The notes beneath the pieces are model-generated. The model was not told the DNA's origin. It saw nothing but the letters and a program-made list of their open reading frames with translations, and ran no database searches. A stretch of DNA of 39,700 nucleotides from Pseudomonas sp. Lineage in GTDB: Bacteria > Pseudomonadota > Gammaproteobacteria > Pseudomonadales > Pseudomonadaceae. Both the position numbers and the translations under genes were made by a program. Below, one piece after another: positions 1,587 to 25,221 of the stretch. The DNA lies in NCBI GenBank assembly GCA_022448005.1, contig JAKUTK010000048.1, positions 1-39,700 on the forward strand, written 5' to 3'. Within the stretch, counting starts at the first letter, position 1, and the number at the start of each line of letters is the position of its first letter.

Positions 1587-3965
1587 TCAGAACAACCCGA
1601 GCTGCTCATCGATCAGTGCGTTGAAGCTGTCATTCACGAACGGCAGGATGGCATCGGCGATGGGTTGCAGCTGGCGGCTGACGTAATGGTCGTAGTCGAT
1701 CGGTGCGCGCCTCACTTCCAGTGGTTCGGGCCCCGCCACGGTGATCAGGTAGCTGATCCAGCCGCCGTTCTGGTACTGCCGCTGGCGACCGTTTTGCAGG
1801 TTGTAGTCGTCGGCAATACGCGCCGCCCGCACGTGCGGCGGGACGTTGCGCTCGTAGTCATCCAGGCGTCGACGCAAGCGCTTGCGAAAGATCAGCAGGT
1901 CGTCCAGCTCACCGGCCAGCGTACGCTGGACGTAGGTGCGCACGTAGTCCTGATAGGGCTCGCGACTGAAGATGCGCCGATACAACTCCTGTTGGAACTG
2001 CTGAGCCAGCGGCGACCAGTCGGTCCGCACCGTTTCCAGCCCTTTGAACACCAGGCCGTCGCGGCCATCGGGACGCGTCACCAGCCCGGCATAACGTTTC
2101 TTACTGCCCTCCTCCGCGCCACGAATCGTCGGCATCAGGAAGCGCTTGAAGTGTGTTTCGTATTGCAGTTCCAGCGCACTGTGTAGACCGAACGTTTGCT
2201 GAAGGTGTTCGCGCCACCAATCGTTGATGCGCTGCACCAGTTGCGTGCCAATACGCGCGGCGTCTTCGTCATCATGGGCGCGCTTGAGCCAGACGAAGGT
2301 GGAGTCGGTATCGCCGTAGATCACGCTGTACCCCTCAGCCTCGATCAACTCGCGGGTGCGGCGCATGATCTCGTGGCCGCGCAAGGTGATCGATGAGGCC
2401 AGCCGCGGATCGAAAAACCGGCAGCCGCTTGAGCCGAGCACGCCGTAGAAAGCGTTCATGATGATTTTCAACGCCTGCGACAGCGGTTTATTGCCCTCGC
2501 GCTTGGCCGATTCGCGCCCTTCCCAGACGCGCTCGACAATCGCCGGCAGGCAATGCCGCTTACGCGAGAAACGCGCACCGCGAAAGCCGGGCACCGAGTC
2601 GCTGTCTTCCGGTTGGCGCATGCCTTCGACCAGCCCCACCGGATCGATCAGAAAGGTACGGATGATCGAGGGGTAAAGGCTCTTGTAGTCCAGCACCAGC
2701 ACAGACTCGTACAGGCCCGGCTGTGAATTCATCACAAAACCGCCAGGGCTGGCCTCCGGTGGTCGCTCGCCGAGGTTGGGCGCGACGAAGCCCTGGCGAT
2801 GCATCAATGGGATATAGAGGTGTTCGAACGCCGCCACCGAGCCTCCGCTACGGTCGGCTGGCAGCCCGGTGACAGTGGCGCGTTCGAGCAGAAAGGTCAG
2901 CAACTCGGTCTTGTGGAAGATCCGCGTGACCAGCTCGCAATCCTTGAGGTTGTAGCGCGCCAACGCCGGCTTGTCTTCGGCGAACATGCGGTTGATTTCA
3001 TCCATCCGCTGATAGGGCGTGTCGATGGCTTTGCCTTCACAAAGCAGCGTTTGCGCGACATTCTCCAGACTGAACGAAGGAAAACTCCAGGTGGCCGAGC
3101 GCAGGGCTTCGATGCCATCGATGATCAGCCGGCCCGCCGCTGCAGCAAAAAAATGGTTGCCTCGGCTGCCGTGTTCACGCCAGGCCATTTCTTCCCCACC
3201 ACGCCCCAAACGCAGCGGCACCTGATAGCGCTGGGCCTGATCACGCAGCACCCGCAGGTCGAACTGCACCAGATTCCAGCCAATGATGGCGTCTGGGTCG
3301 TGCCGCGCCATCCAGTCGTTCAGTCTTTCGATCAGCTGTTTGCGGCTGTCGCAGTATTCCAGCTGAAAATCCACGGTTTCGGCATTGCCGTTGGCCGGAC
3401 CGAGCATATAGACCTGGCGCTCCCCGCAGCCCTCCAGGCCTATGGAATACAGCTCGCCGCGCATGGTGGTTTCGATGTCCAGCGAAACCAGCCTTAGTTG
3501 CGGCCGATAGCTCGGCGCAGGCTTGATCTGCGCCTCGACCCACACGCCCTCTTCGTTCGGCTGGCCGGTATAGCTGACCGGGGCGGTGATGAAGCGCTCC
3601 ATCAGGTAACGCTCTGGCGGGCGGATGTCGCCTTCGTAAACATCCAGTCCCGCGTCGCGCAGGCGCTTGTCGAGGTTCATCAGCTGACGGTGCTGCTTGC
3701 AATACAGCCCGACCACCGGACGGTGGCGGAAATCAGTCAAATTCAAGGGCCGCAGCTCAGCGTCTCGTTCGCCCTTGAGCAGCATTTCAACCTTGCGCTG
3801 CTGAGCCGCTGGAATGAAGGCAATCGAAGGCTGGTACGGCACCCGCAGGCGACGTGGGCCGGCATCAGTTGCCAACCAGAACTCGACCTCTGTACCCGCC
3901 GCGGTATCGCGCCAGTGTCGAGTGAGCACAAATCCTTGCTGCAGATCCACCGTTCGCCGCCCCAC
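1587..3965 (-). CDS. polB: DNA polymerase II (family B)
   Basis: A full-length 792-residue family B DNA polymerase with 3'-5' proofreading. Members act in SOS-induced replication restart and translesion synthesis. The exonuclease motifs are visible in order: SLDIETT (Exo I), GWNLVQFD (Exo II) and YNLKDCELV (Exo III). The polymerase motifs follow: [10 protein letters not shown] (motif A), [15 protein letters not shown] (motif B) and [10 protein letters not shown] (motif C, with the two catalytic aspartates). Length matches the E. coli enzyme (about 783 residues). No LexA box was recognised with confidence just upstream. The gene is convergent with the exchanger gene, 6 bp between stops. Confidence 0.97.
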
Positions 3966-21406: not shown

Positions 21407-21880
21407 TCAGCGAATGCCCAACATCCGGTCTGCTGACCAATGCCCGGCACCGCGTCCAATAACAAGCAGCATCAACCCGATCCAGGTCAGGTGTGTGGGC
21501 CAGGCATCGGGGTATACGAAGACCTGGATCACCAGTGTCATGCCCAGCAGGGCCAACGCTGATAGCCGCGTTAAAAGCCCGATCGCCAGCAGAAGCGGAA
21601 ACAGATGCTCGGCATAAGTGGCCAGATGCGCAGCCAGCTGAGGCGACAGCAGCGGAAGCACGTACTCGGTTTCGAACAGGTTGAAGGTGCTGGGTTTGAT
21701 CGTGAGAAATCCGCTGACCTTGGTTCGCCCGGAATAGAAGAACACCGCGGCGATAGCCAGGCGCGCCACCAGACTCAACATCGAGTCGCTGACATGGTGT
21801 TGCAGCCATAAGGCGAGTCGATTCCAGTGCTGCAACGGGCTCGATGTCGGGCTGGCTGGGTTCCTGTGCAAGGCGTGCAT
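21407..21880 (-). CDS. DoxX family membrane protein of the bufferin operon
   Basis: A 157-residue four-helix membrane protein of the DoxX family ([12 protein letters not shown] near residue 50, [37 protein letters not shown] near 90-125). DoxX proteins are often the last gene of MNIO/bufferin operons and are thought to take part in redox handling at the inner membrane. It starts 21 bases after the bufC stop with a TGGAG ribosome site, so it is almost certainly in the operon. Confidence 0.88.
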
Positions 21881-21901
21881 GTCGGTTACTCCAGTGGGTG
21901 A

Positions 21902-22681
21902 TCAATCGGCGACGAAGACCTGGGCGGCAAACAGACCCGCCAGCAACGCATTGAAATCCAGCGCCGGCTGGGACTCGAGCGCGAGATCCGAGGCGCTGGC
22001 AAGGGTATGACCATCGGCGCAAGCGTCGAGAAAGGCGCAACCGCCAAGACTCAATGGCTGCCAGACCACCCGGTTGTCTCGCCGGCAGAGCAACGTGCCC
22101 TCGCCTTGCCAGCGCAGCGGATCGGGCAGCTCGGCGCCTTCGCGGTTGCAACGCCACAGGGTGAAGGCCGGCACAACGGACCAGCGCCAGTGCGCCGCTG
22201 TGCTGGGTCGCAGACGCAGTTCGGCGAGTTGCGCCGGCGCCATCGAACTCAGCGTATGCAGTTCAAGGCGGGGGTGTTCCGGCGCGGCAAAGGCTAAAAG
22301 CCACAGGCGATCGAGGCGCGCGATCTCTGCAAGGTACGGCAGGTCGCGGGCAGGTTCGAACCGCTCAAGAAAGTCTGCAAAGCCTTCGCCATAGCGGACC
22401 AACTGCGGTTGGGTCGGAGGGAACTGCCGTGCAAATACGCGCGCTGCTGCACTCATCCATTCGGCACCCACCAGTCGCTCGACCGTCGGGAAGTTCGCCC
22501 GCAGCGCATCGACGCACCCCTTCAGCACGGTGTTGCGGTAGACCGCGAACCCTGGTTGCGCCGCCAGCCTCGCCAGCCAGTCAGTGGGGGGATTGGCAGC
22601 AGAAGGACCAGGGCCCATGGGTTCGTCGGTCCATAGCGCTTCAGCCAAGCCATCCTGAAAATCAGCGAGCGTGAGCGTCAT
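21902..22681 (-). CDS. bufC: DUF2063 protein, BufC/HvfC-like partner of the MNIO enzyme
   Basis: A 259-residue protein with the DUF2063 N-terminal domain ([15 protein letters not shown], then [28 protein letters not shown] and [27 protein letters not shown]). Members partner with MNIO enzymes, recognising or presenting the precursor peptide. The start at 22681 is chosen since the family begins with the LTLADFQ segment; it overlaps the bufB end by 20 bases, showing translational coupling. The C-terminal half (residues 130-259) is less conserved. Confidence 0.9.
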
Positions 22682-23513
22682 GTCGCCCCCTTTTCTCAAG
22701 CAGCCGCTGCGCATGGTCGCGCTCGATCAGCAGCTCGGCGAAGGTTGGCAGCTGGTCATCACGTTCGATCAATGTGGGTCGTGTGCCGATACGCTCGATC
22801 AATCGGTCATAGAGCGACCAGACGGCGGCCGCTATCGGCGCGTCGTGCGAATCGATCAACAGCCCTGAATGCGCGGAGCTGTCCTGCCTATGCCCGGCCA
22901 GATGCACCTCCAGTACAGCTTCAGCGGGAAAACGATCGATATATGCAGCAGCATCAAAGCCGAGATTGTGAGCGCTGACGTCTACGTTATTGACGTCCAG
23001 CAACAGGCCGCAGCCGCTGCGACGGGCCAGCTCAGCCAGAAACTCGATCTCATCCCACTCATGCCCCTCGAGGCGCAGGTAGTGGCTGGGGTTTTCCACT
23101 GCGATCTGCCGACCCAGCACCTCCTGGGTGCGCTGGATGTTATCGACGATACGCGCCAGAGCCGCCTCGGTTCGCGGAAAAGGCAACAGGTCGGGGTTGT
23201 ACTGACCTCGCCAGGCAGACCAGGCCAGGTGTTCGGAAACCAGTGCAGGCCGAACCCGCTCGATCAATGATCTGAAGCCTTGCAGATGGGATTCGTCCGG
23301 CGGGCAATCGGCAGCCAGTGACAGCGATACGCCATGCAACGAAAGCGGATGACGCTCGCCGATGGCGTCCAGCCAGGCCAGACGGGGGCCGCCGCCGAGC
23401 ATGTAGTTTTCCGGATGCACTTCGAACCAGAGGCCCGGCGCGGCACAGTCAAACGCCGGCTCGTAATGCTCGGGCTTCAAGCCAAGACCTGCTCCCAGAA
23501 CTGACATGCTCAT
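22662..23513 (-). CDS. bufB: MNIO-family (DUF692) multinuclear iron oxidase, BufB-like
   Basis: A 283-residue DUF692/MbnB-type enzyme with a TIM-barrel fold. Iron ligand candidates are seen in [57 protein letters not shown] and IDSHDAP. MNIO enzymes use a mixed-valent iron centre and oxygen to modify cysteines in precursor peptides; for bufferins the product reported is a thiooxazole that binds copper. The gene follows bufA by 13 bases and overlaps bufC. Both spacing and content point to it being the maturase of the BufA-like peptide. Confidence 0.94.
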
Positions 23514-23526
23514 GCGGCGGCTCCTG

Positions 23527-23799
23527 TCAGGACTCGATCGGCGTCAGCGAGCCCATGCCTTCGGGCGTCTTGATTTCAGTGCAAGTACCGGCCGGTACTT
23601 TTTTCCAGGCATTGCCCTGGTAATCCACTTTCGAGCTGCCGGCGCAGCTGGTGCCGGCACCGGCTTTGCAATCGTTTTGGCCGGCGAGCGCGACGCCGTA
23701 GCATTTCTCCATGGCGCCTTCGGTTTTTTCAGCAGCCGTGGCGCCGGCGGCGATGGATGCAAGGGCAACAGCTGCTGCAGCAAGGGCGAGATTATTCAT
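23527..23799 (-). CDS. bufA: BufA1-like bufferin precursor (DUF2282)
   Basis: A 90-residue exported precursor peptide. A signal peptide covers about residues 1-23 (Ala-rich, ending GATAA). The mature part has exactly four cysteines, at residues 33, 44, 52 and 73, in the pattern [22 protein letters not shown] and GTCTEI, which is the BufA1/DUF2282 signature. In characterised bufferins some cysteines become copper-binding thiooxazoles and the others pair. The start at 23799 has a GGAG site and directly begins the signal peptide; the frame is open further upstream to 23949 but that part crosses the promoter. Confidence 0.92.
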
Positions 23800-23854
23800 T
23801 TGATGTTTCTCCAGGCTGTGTTGCTGACAGTGGTTTACTGGCAGCTCGACCAGT

Positions 23855-23882
23855 AATTCGCCCTGTTCGGTCGCTCGGTTAC
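23855..23882 (-). promoter_or_regulatory. ECF sigma-type promoter of the bufferin operon
   Basis: On the minus strand GTAACC (23882-23877), a 16-base spacer and CGAATT (23860-23855) match the GTAACC-N16-CGAA form that I recall for the Caulobacter SigF regulon, which also contains bufferin genes. Transcription would start near 23848, giving a 5' leader of about 50 bases before bufA. Confidence 0.7.
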
Positions 23883-24000
23883 AGCGGGAGCAAGAAATAT
23901 ATTTTTGAGATTTCTTCCATCTCGTCCTACCGTAGCGGCGCGCCGCCACCCTGCCGTGGGTGGATGCAACGGACGCACAGCATCGTTTTTTTCCTTCCGT

Positions 24001-24028
24001 GTAACCAGAGCGACCGATGCAACGAACT
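24001..24028 (+). promoter_or_regulatory. Second GTAACC-N16-CGAA site, over the sigma gene start
   Basis: GTAACC at 24001-24006, a 16-base spacer and CGAACT at 24023-24028 repeat the bufA promoter in the opposite orientation, sharing GAGCGACCGA within the spacer. Its -10 element lies inside codons 3-4 of the sigma gene as annotated, so it cannot drive the full-length frame from 24017. Confidence 0.5.
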
Positions 24029-24583
24029 ACCAGTCATGAGGCGCTCAAGGCACGCGAAGCCCATCTGCAACAGCTGCTACTTCTGGGGCTGGACGGCGAC
24101 GATGAGGCCTATCGGCGATTCTTGACGCTGCTCGGCGCGCATCTGCGCAGCTTCCTCAGGCGCCGACTGCAATCGCCGGAGGTTGAAGACCTGTTGCAGG
24201 AGGCCCTGCTGGCGGTGCACAACGCGCGGCATACCTATCGCCGCGAGCAACCGGTGACCGCCTGGGTACAGGCGATAGCGCGTTACAAACTGATGGACCA
24301 TTTTCGAGCCCATGCAAGGCACGATGCCTTGAACGATTCATTGAGCGACCAGGCAGAGCTGCTAGCCGACGAAGATCACCAGGCCCAGCAAGCGCAGCGG
24401 GACCTGGCCCGACTGCTCGAACAACTCCCGGACAAGCAACGCTTGCCCATTCTTCACGTCAAATTACAGGGGCTTTCGGTGGAAGAAACCGCTCGACGTA
24501 CCGGACTTTCGGCTTCAGCAGTCAAGGTGGGCGTTCACCGCGGACTGAAAGCGCTGGCCGCCCTGATTGGAGGACACCGATGA
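24017..24583 (+). CDS. ECF RNA polymerase sigma factor, SigF-like
   Basis: A 188-residue ECF sigma factor. Region 2 is seen as [23 protein letters not shown] with [19 protein letters not shown]. Region 4 is [38 protein letters not shown] with its helix-turn-helix. Its stop overlaps the start of the anti-sigma gene (ATGA), the usual coupled pair. The divergent bufferin operon is the obvious target. The ATG at 24017 is the only ATG in frame before region 2, but a promoter-like motif runs across it (24001-24028), so the start is open to doubt; only CTG codons could replace it. Confidence 0.92.
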
Positions 24584-25221
24584 AGACCGACGAGCTGATC
24601 AACATGCTCGCCAACCGCGCACCGCCCGTGGATCGGCAGGTCGTGGCGCGACGCTTTGGTACAGCCCTGGCAATTGGTCTGGCGCTGGCAGTGCTGGTGT
24701 TACTGACGGTCTTCCGTATTCGCCCGGACATTGCGCAAGTCGCGACGACACCGCTGTTCTGGGCCAAGCTGGCGCTGCCGGCAAGCCTGCTCGTCGGCGC
24801 TTTGCTGGTAACCACGCGACTCGCCAGACCAGGAGCGCCTGTGGGTAACGGCTGGGTCACTGTCGCAGCGCCGGTGGTAGCAGTTTGGCTGGCGGCGTTG
24901 GGCCTGTTGTTCAGCGTTTCGGCCAACAGCCGTTGGGCACTGATTTTCGGGGAAACCTGGCGAGTCTGCCCGCTGAACATCGCGCTGCTGTCGATTCCCA
25001 CGTTCGCCTGCGTGTTCTGGGCGATCCGCGGCTTTGCGCCGACCCGGCTGCGTCTCGCCGGCGCAGCTGGGGGGTTGCTGGCCGGCTCGATGGCAACGCT
25101 TGCCTACAGCCTGCATTGCCCGGAGATGAGTGTCGCCTTCTGGGCCGTCTGGTATGTGCTTGGCATGCTCATCCCCACCGCCGTCGGCGCCCTCCTAGGC
25201 CCACGGCTGTTGCGTTGGTAA
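24580..25221 (+). CDS. DUF1109/NrsF-type membrane anti-sigma factor
   Basis: A 213-residue protein with six predicted membrane helices, the DUF1109 (NrsF) layout: a short cytoplasmic N-terminus (residues 1-23, [19 protein letters not shown]) followed by hydrophobic segments. In Caulobacter NrsF holds SigF inactive and senses metals or oxidants through cysteines. Cysteines here lie in WRVCPLNIAL, FACVFWA and LHCPEMSVAF. The gene overlaps the sigma gene by four bases. The assignment as anti-sigma is from family and context. Confidence 0.9.
   Translation: MKTDELINMLANRAPPVDRQVVARRFGTALAIGLALAVLVLLTVFRIRPDIAQVATTPLFWAKLALPASLLVGALLVTTRLARPGAPVGNGWVTVAAPVVAVWLAALGLLFSVSANSRWALIFGETWRVCPLNIALLSIPTFACVFWAIRGFAPTRLRLAGAAGGLLAGSMATLAYSLHCPEMSVAFWAVWYVLGMLIPTAVGALLGPRLLRW

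Follow-up and report, generated by a model that had tools for sequence, protein, structure and literature searches.

The DNA analyzed here (hereafter the window) is a stretch of 39,700 nucleotides deposited as Pseudomonas sp. (GenBank assembly GCA_022448005.1, contig JAKUTK010000048.1), in which six genes make up a divergent locus: a bufferin operon with the order bufA-bufB-bufC-doxX and, facing away from it, a pair of genes for an extracytoplasmic function (ECF) sigma factor and an NrsF/DUF1109 anti-sigma factor (Table 1). An earlier sequence-only reading of this DNA had described a tight operon for a four-cysteine precursor, a multinuclear non-heme iron-dependent oxidase (MNIO), a DUF2063 partner and a DoxX protein, diverging from an overlapping sigma/DUF1109 pair. 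Both descriptions are borne out by the coordinates (gaps of 13, -20 and 21 bases within the operon; an overlap of 4 bases between sigma and nrsF) and by NCBIfam and Pfam, with DoxX, DUF2063, MbnB_TglH_ChrH, DUF2282, Sigma70 regions 2 and 4, and NrsF all over the Pfam cut-off. Judged from its sequence, the locus is a Buf1-type bufferin cluster beside its own ECF16-type sigma/NrsF pair. Its gene content is ordinary; its regulatory region is unusual, and is best explained as a brake. What is new here is a predicted sigma-facing promoter that lies across the start codon of the sigma gene and is widely conserved, and no title or abstract found in the open-access literature describes an ECF16 promoter in that position.

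Table 1. Genes, predicted promoters and nrsF ribosome site of the bufferin locus, in positions of the window.
Feature	Position	Strand	Description
doxX	21407-21880	-	DoxX-family membrane protein, GigT-like; PF07681, 63 bits, over cut-off
bufC	21902-22681	-	DUF2063 MNIO partner; PF09836, 76 bits, over cut-off
bufB	22662-23513	-	MNIO bufferin maturase; PF05114, 317 bits; NF050167 MNIO_BufB, 356 bits
bufA	23527-23799	-	DUF2282 Buf1-type precursor, 90 amino acids; PF10048, 91 bits; Cys 33, 44, 52, 73
buf-operon promoter (predicted)	23857-23883	-	TGTAACC-N16-CGAA, sigma-F-type
P1 (putative)	23905-23933	+	housekeeping promoter of sigma-nrsF, TTGAGA-N17-TACCGT; sigma-70-like pattern
P2, embedded promoter (predicted)	24000-24026	+	-35 TGTAACC 24000-24006; -10 CGAA 24023-24026; sigma ATG in spacer
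sigma	24017-24583	+	ECF16/SigF-like, 188 amino acids; PF04542, PF08281; NF009188, 287 bits, over subfamily cut-off
nrsF ribosome site	24569-24574	+	GGAGGA; -9.3 kcal/mol with the anti-Shine-Dalgarno sequence
nrsF	24580-25221	+	NrsF/DUF1109 anti-sigma factor, 213 amino acids; PF06532, 248 bits; Cys130, Cys180

The string TGTAACC-N16-CGAA occurs twice in the window, both times in the intergenic region of this locus and once in each direction, where 0.01 occurrences would be expected; a chance motif is ruled out, as none of 100 shuffles of the window contained two sites. The string contains the sigma-F site of Caulobacter, GTAACC-N16-CGAA (PMC3511200), which is present both at the sigma operon and at its target, each site being a predicted promoter. 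Within the sigma-facing site, P2, the ATG of sigma occupies positions 24017-24019, and the -10 CGAA is made up of codon 3 and the first base of codon 4. Since the TAA within TGTAACC is in frame, any in-frame start further upstream is excluded and 24017 is the first possible start of sigma. The layout departs from that of classical positively autoregulated ECF genes in that the promoter is not upstream of a usable sigma start, and we regard it as very likely that the start codon lies within the promoter.

The arrangement is shared by many relatives of the window locus. One search for relatives used six peptide patterns from the window sigma, including its N-terminal eight residues, with the best 80 of 340 kept; of 150 loci in all, the 148 that gave a sigma match make up the set of relatives (L034 and L035 gave none, and L033 and L036 are one place). 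Promoter and ATG stand at the identical offset (-16, +6) in 78 of the 148, among them carriers in Pseudomonas, Stutzerimonas, Cupriavidus, Ralstonia, some Paraburkholderia and others. Removal of identical stretches leaves 66 distinct relatives, a set selected on motif and start codon, of which 62 also have the divergent, buf-facing site. Codon 3 was recounted in 71 distinct genes selected on the start codon alone, and is CGA in 69 of them as compared with 12.3% CGA among later arginine codons, which rules out that it is kept for the protein alone; codon 4 is ACT in 59 of the 71 genes as compared with 6.0% among threonine codons. Across 248 Pseudomonadaceae genomes, a sample rich in members of the genus, there are 48 full-length nrsF matches (one with two internal stops), and in 45 of these the promoter pattern precedes nrsF by 606-623 bases; the other 32 of the 77 matches to the pattern lie elsewhere. 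The three nrsF matches that have no such pattern are two close copies from one genome (G104) and one from G226. On a tree of 131 sigma proteins, which has long branches, a looser label (GTAAC...CGAA across the start) requires 4 changes as against 44 when shuffled. Burkholderia-type relatives and Cupriavidus metallidurans CH34 have the promoter well upstream instead. The locus of Pseudomonas morbosilactucae (L105) has it 18 bases further upstream than the window, about 34 bases before an ATG-MERTT that is kept; judged from the sequence, this locus would give a leaderless message that starts close to the ATG, which makes it a natural control for the overlap model.

The start codon at 24017 itself looks real on sequence grounds. 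Among the 79 loci selected on the motif alone, position 0 is ATG in 77 and GTG in 1, and the remaining locus (L058) has GAC there and an ATG at codon 10. In 28 pairs, the ratio of nonsynonymous to synonymous polymorphism (pN/pS) is 0.34 for codons 10-16, which thus behave like coding sequence, and 0.16 for codons 26-90, compared with 0.89 for the upstream non-coding DNA. A rival account would have the start mis-annotated, with P2 as a normal sigma promoter in a positively autoregulated gene, as in other ECF16 systems, and translation beginning later, at an NTG at codon 10 in relatives or at a rare codon such as the CTG at codon 17 in the window. It draws on six loci (L056-L059, L052-L053) that have a start-capable codon some 17-23 bases past CGAA, on the orthologous bcrS operon of Brucella, which is autoregulated (PMC8315932), and on codon 10, which encodes leucine in 59 of the 66 relatives and is enriched in TTG (28 of the 59, against 14.4% elsewhere). 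Yet codon 10 varies among five leucine spellings (TTG, CTC, CTG, TTA and CTT) where position 0 is held as ATG or GTG, and it is CTC in the window, whose next in-frame ATG, GTG or TTG is the TTG at codon 36, close to or within region 2 (Pfam match 41-101). Moreover, 31 of the 66 relatives have no such codon at codons 7-14, and the P. morbosilactucae gene keeps its ATG-MERTT with the promoter moved away. We consider a mis-annotated start rather unlikely. Near the expected P2 transcript start, we also observed an out-of-frame ATG that opens a frame of 29 codons across the beginning of the sigma gene (window positions 24036-24125, + strand); this ATG is missing in several relatives.

What P2 would be for is suggested by the ribosome sites of the locus. 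Their computed energies with the anti-Shine-Dalgarno sequence are -10.7 kcal/mol for bufC, -9.3 for nrsF, -6.6 for bufB, -6.4 for bufA, -5.9 for doxX and -2.1 for sigma, the weakest of the six and at the level of background (mean -2.5). The same contrast is seen in the relatives, with means of -6.6 kcal/mol for nrsF (n=65) and -3.5 for sigma (n=66; Wilcoxon p 2e-9, kinship ignored). By analogy with the mapped RpoE7 promoters of Sinorhizobium meliloti, whose published sequences extend 10 bases past CGAA and include the start site (PMC6180224), a P2 transcript would be expected to start at about 24027-24036, after the ATG and within sigma codons 4-7. With its start past the ATG, a strong nrsF site and a background-level sigma site, the P2 message would be suited to NrsF and not to sigma, and sigma would then have to come from elsewhere, with P1 as the candidate source. 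We hold an NrsF-biased output of P2 with slightly less than even confidence. The P1 pattern was selected by eye after viewing the sequences; in the form TTGAG[AG]-N16-18-TANNNT it is found upstream in 42 of the 62 relatives with the divergent site, against a mean of 0.06 in shuffles and 0 on the other strand, and a general sigma-70 consensus scan found 0 promoters. In favor of such a source, the counterpart operon rpoQ-rsqA of C. metallidurans CH34 is stated to need RpoD (PMC10304878).

P2 could instead act as an occlusion site, where sigma-bound RNA polymerase sitting over the sigma start would block transcription from P1, giving direct autorepression and no useful P2 transcript. P2 does span both the start codon and its ribosome site, with a constant offset, and occlusion would likewise give negative feedback, with no need for translation after a long untranslated leader. 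However, the -10 box is conserved letter for letter, which initiation would predict, and a promoter is retained where there is no sigma start to block. The latter case comes from conjugative plasmids of Pseudomonas sp. p1(2021b) and Stenotrophomonas rhizophila (L161:1-6210 and L162:1-6210), which carry two bufferin modules in tandem; the second has nrsF but no sigma gene, and GTAACC-N16-CGAA still stands about 120 bases before nrsF. The two plasmids share the site sequence and are counted as one event; the retained site also speaks for the self-limiting switch proposed below. We regard occlusion as improbable. As for the surroundings of these plasmid modules, mer genes lie near L162 and a Tn3-family transposase near L161.

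That the bufferin locus is controlled by the adjacent sigma factor we consider likely, with good confidence. How it is controlled is less settled, and our confidence is evenly balanced on a self-limiting ECF16 sigma/NrsF switch in which P1 would make sigma and NrsF, and active sigma would fire the buf operon and extra NrsF. A housekeeping-type P1 would provide a low level of sigma-nrsF message, and the weak sigma and strong nrsF ribosome sites on it would leave sigma held by NrsF. Periplasmic stress from a copper-like metal or an oxidant, sensed via Cys130 and Cys180 of NrsF, would free sigma, which would then fire both GTAACC-N16-CGAA promoters of the divergon. From the buf-facing promoter would come bufABC-doxX, supplying the precursor, the cysteine-modifying MNIO with its partner, and DoxX, and the exported BufA peptide would bind copper in the periplasm. 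The P2 message, which would lack the sole standard start of sigma, would mainly raise NrsF. With P2 placed across the sigma start, sigma would therefore raise its target and its brake but not itself, and the switch would limit itself. The broader claim, that beta- and gammaproteobacteria have conserved an arrangement in which the promoter recognized by a sigma factor spans the start codon of that same sigma, such that active sigma makes more anti-sigma and not more of itself, we advance more tentatively still.

A number of observations weigh against this switch. Codons 5-9 of sigma are weakly constrained (pN/pS 0.57 in the same 28 pairs), and 35 of the 66 relatives have a start-capable codon at codons 7-14. 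The enrichment of TTG at codon 10 means that a shorter sigma could be made from P2, with positive feedback, in many species, although the window itself offers no standard start for one. The P1 motif is missing in 20 of the 62 loci and may owe part of its signal to the A/T tract belonging to the buf promoter. The P2 message would carry some 540 untranslated bases ahead of nrsF, an unfavorable leader, and Rho could end it early. In known systems, deletion of rpoQ in C. metallidurans CH34, where the promoter is upstream and not embedded, did not abolish gig expression (PMC10304878); copper induces Caulobacter sigF and nrsF alike (PMC8224329); the Brucella orthologue is read as positively autoregulated (PMC8315932); and S. 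meliloti rpoE7, which has a GTG start, is read as activating its own promoter, with H2O2, cadmium and chromate failing to induce the orthologous promoters (PMC6180224). Finally, there are 7 TGTAACC-N16/17-CGAA sites in the whole genome and 0 in a backward-read control, and a larger regulon is therefore possible.

Five of these genomic sites lie outside the locus, where plain base count predicts about 5. Around them are genes that we take to be a TRAP transporter, astE, a peptidase, gcl-hyi and rpoB. No second target was evident among these neighbors from reading their translations, with no family search made and variant sites not searched. A second conserved string with the same spacing, GTAACCGCAGGGATTGATGCGTCGAA, was observed in many genomes of a related genus (g9), some of which have no nrsF match (e.g. 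G063:C1:2631666-2631691); it is probably part of an unrelated conserved gene.

Bufferin clusters and the sigma/NrsF switches that go with them occur widely, and the usual reading, modeled on Caulobacter, is a simple positive loop. If the overlap works in the way proposed, the relatives that have it would use a homeostatic loop, with pulse-like bufferin expression and weak autoregulation of sigma, and other ECF operons described as "autoregulated" would deserve a second look where the promoter lies too close to leave room for a 5' leader. In genomes with the overlap, a single message cannot both arise from the sigma promoter and use the annotated sigma start.

The products of the bufferin operon place the cluster within the Buf1 kind. 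The bufB product exceeds the NCBIfam cut-off of 310 bits for MNIO_BufB and has 3bww and 8hci as relatives, while the Buf2 and Hvf equivalogs stay below their cut-offs (BufA2 at 30.1 of 60 bits, HvfC at 30.5 of 142, HvfX at 46.4 of 80); the locus is therefore neither Buf2 nor the Haemophilus-type Hvf. For bufC, the start at 22681 is preferred over 22714 on account of its ribosome site (-10.7 versus -2.2 kcal/mol). BufA has a short, alanine-rich, hydrophobic N-terminus that, as read from the sequence, resembles a Sec signal, and no convincing structure relative of it was found (best E 0.2). Its cysteines 33, 44, 52 and 73 are invariant where aligned (86/86, 87/87, 87/87 and 87/87), with a bufA match in 87 of the 148 loci, many of which are short. 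Cys130 and Cys180 of NrsF are present in all 147 aligned loci, and Cys144 in 5 of the 147. NrsF is a full-length member of its family but not of the curated equivalog NF042994, at 151 bits against a cut-off of 300.

By analogy with characterized bufferins, the BufA cysteines may be modified to thiooxazoles and bind copper, and the locus as a whole may function in defense against copper or oxidants. It may also be that the switch senses hypochlorous acid (HOCl) or other oxidants and that the peptide is mainly an oxidant sink, not a copper buffer. The Brucella ECF16 sigma/anti-sigma pair responds to HOCl (PMC8315932), a DUF1109 anti-sigma factor is listed as sensing reactive chlorine species (PMC9751292), and a DUF692 gene set of Pseudomonas aeruginosa is expressed with sodium hypochlorite (PMC9023270). 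In Brucella, however, the HOCl system goes with a methionine-rich repeat protein and its partner genes, and no such gene lies next to the locus in the window. Expression of the four-gene operon increases with copper in Caulobacter (PMC8224329), and both copper and gold raise it in C. metallidurans (PMC10304878); metal and oxidant signals could also both act on the same cysteines. An oxidant sink in place of a copper buffer seems to us unlikely.

The host is better called Stutzerimonas (Pseudomonadaceae) than, as the sequence-only reading had it, a Pseudomonas, because the closest named relatives by sigma protein are strains of Stutzerimonas stutzeri (among the best 80 of 340). The locus holds the sole DUF2282, MNIO and NrsF matches of its genome (E 0.001; 5.0 Mb, 98.9% complete). 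Of 56 genomes from the genus, 24 have DUF2282 and MNIO, never one without the other, and all 24 have nrsF (in one as two pieces); 30 lack all three, and the other 2 retain just 3' nrsF pieces and are without bufferin genes. In the genus, bufA, bufB and nrsF form one unit. Recent transfer into the lineage is not supported: the sigma tree sets the window inside a Stutzerimonas/Pseudomonas clade, although 32 of the 56 genomes are devoid of the module. Three oddities of the module were observed in individual genomes. The 3' nrsF pieces (L034 and L035, in G053 and G020), with no DUF2282 or MNIO match in either genome, are probable scars of module loss. A single-contig genome (L033/L036, G045:C1:1980478-1981087) has nrsF as two overlapping pieces beside a full-length sigma gene, with DUF2282 and MNIO present, which is either a lost brake or a sequencing error. 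In a third case (G005:C6:129134-131474), the DUF2282 and MNIO matches are about 1.4 kb apart and not adjacent, probably through an insertion into the operon.

Bufferin clusters with sigma and NrsF genes have already been described, a 2025 survey having found these genes in Buf1 and not Buf2 clusters (PMC12452194), and the locus is of this known kind. The sequence-only reading had proposed a circuit of the Caulobacter SigF/NrsF type. Its outline stands, in that a Buf1 cluster lies beside an ECF16-type sigma/NrsF pair with one sigma-F-type promoter site per arm; the likeness fails where NrsF reaches half of the equivalog cut-off and the sigma-facing promoter overlaps the sigma start. In Caulobacter crescentus, SigF-NrsF and the bufferin operon CC3254-CC3257 belong to the same families as the window genes and share GTAACC-N16-CGAA and the two conserved NrsF cysteines (PMC3511200), which in Caulobacter are periplasmic, and copper induces the orthologous operon (PMC8224329). 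The NrsF of the window, by contrast, scores below the equivalog cut-off; Caulobacter sigma-F controls two further clusters (PMC8224329), whereas no second target is evident in the window genome; and a promoter/start overlap is not described in the Caulobacter passages cited. In S. meliloti, RpoE7 (RpoE7-EcfR7/SMb20530-SMb20527) activates a divergent DUF692 and DUF2063 operon, with promoters mapped both ways (PMC6180224).

A close counterpart in layout is the gigPABT/rpoQ-rsqA divergon of C. metallidurans CH34 (L160), which has the same genes in the same order and orientation (PMC10304878), with 50-67% identity for the bufA, bufB, bufC and doxX homologues (doxX 65%), 66% for sigma and 54% for NrsF. 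There, gig is induced by copper and gold (PMC10304878, PMC7563307) and rpoQ-rsqA is stated to be RpoD-dependent (PMC10304878). As in the window, GTAACC-N16-CGAA faces each way; unlike in the window, the sigma-facing site ends at L160:3229, with the first in-frame ATG at 3263 in this unannotated record, and the promoter precedes the gene. The circuit is also not newly carried into a Pseudomonas, as had been suggested: besides the gig divergon, an alignment from 2012 already included the NrsF orthologues of Pseudomonas putida and P. entomophila (PMC3511200), and P. putida KT2440 has a putative sigma gene beside a DUF1109 anti-sigma gene (PP_0994/PP_0995; PMC5557654), a pair likened to ours by description only. 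As in the window, the promoter is embedded in a locus of P. putida GM4FR (L093).

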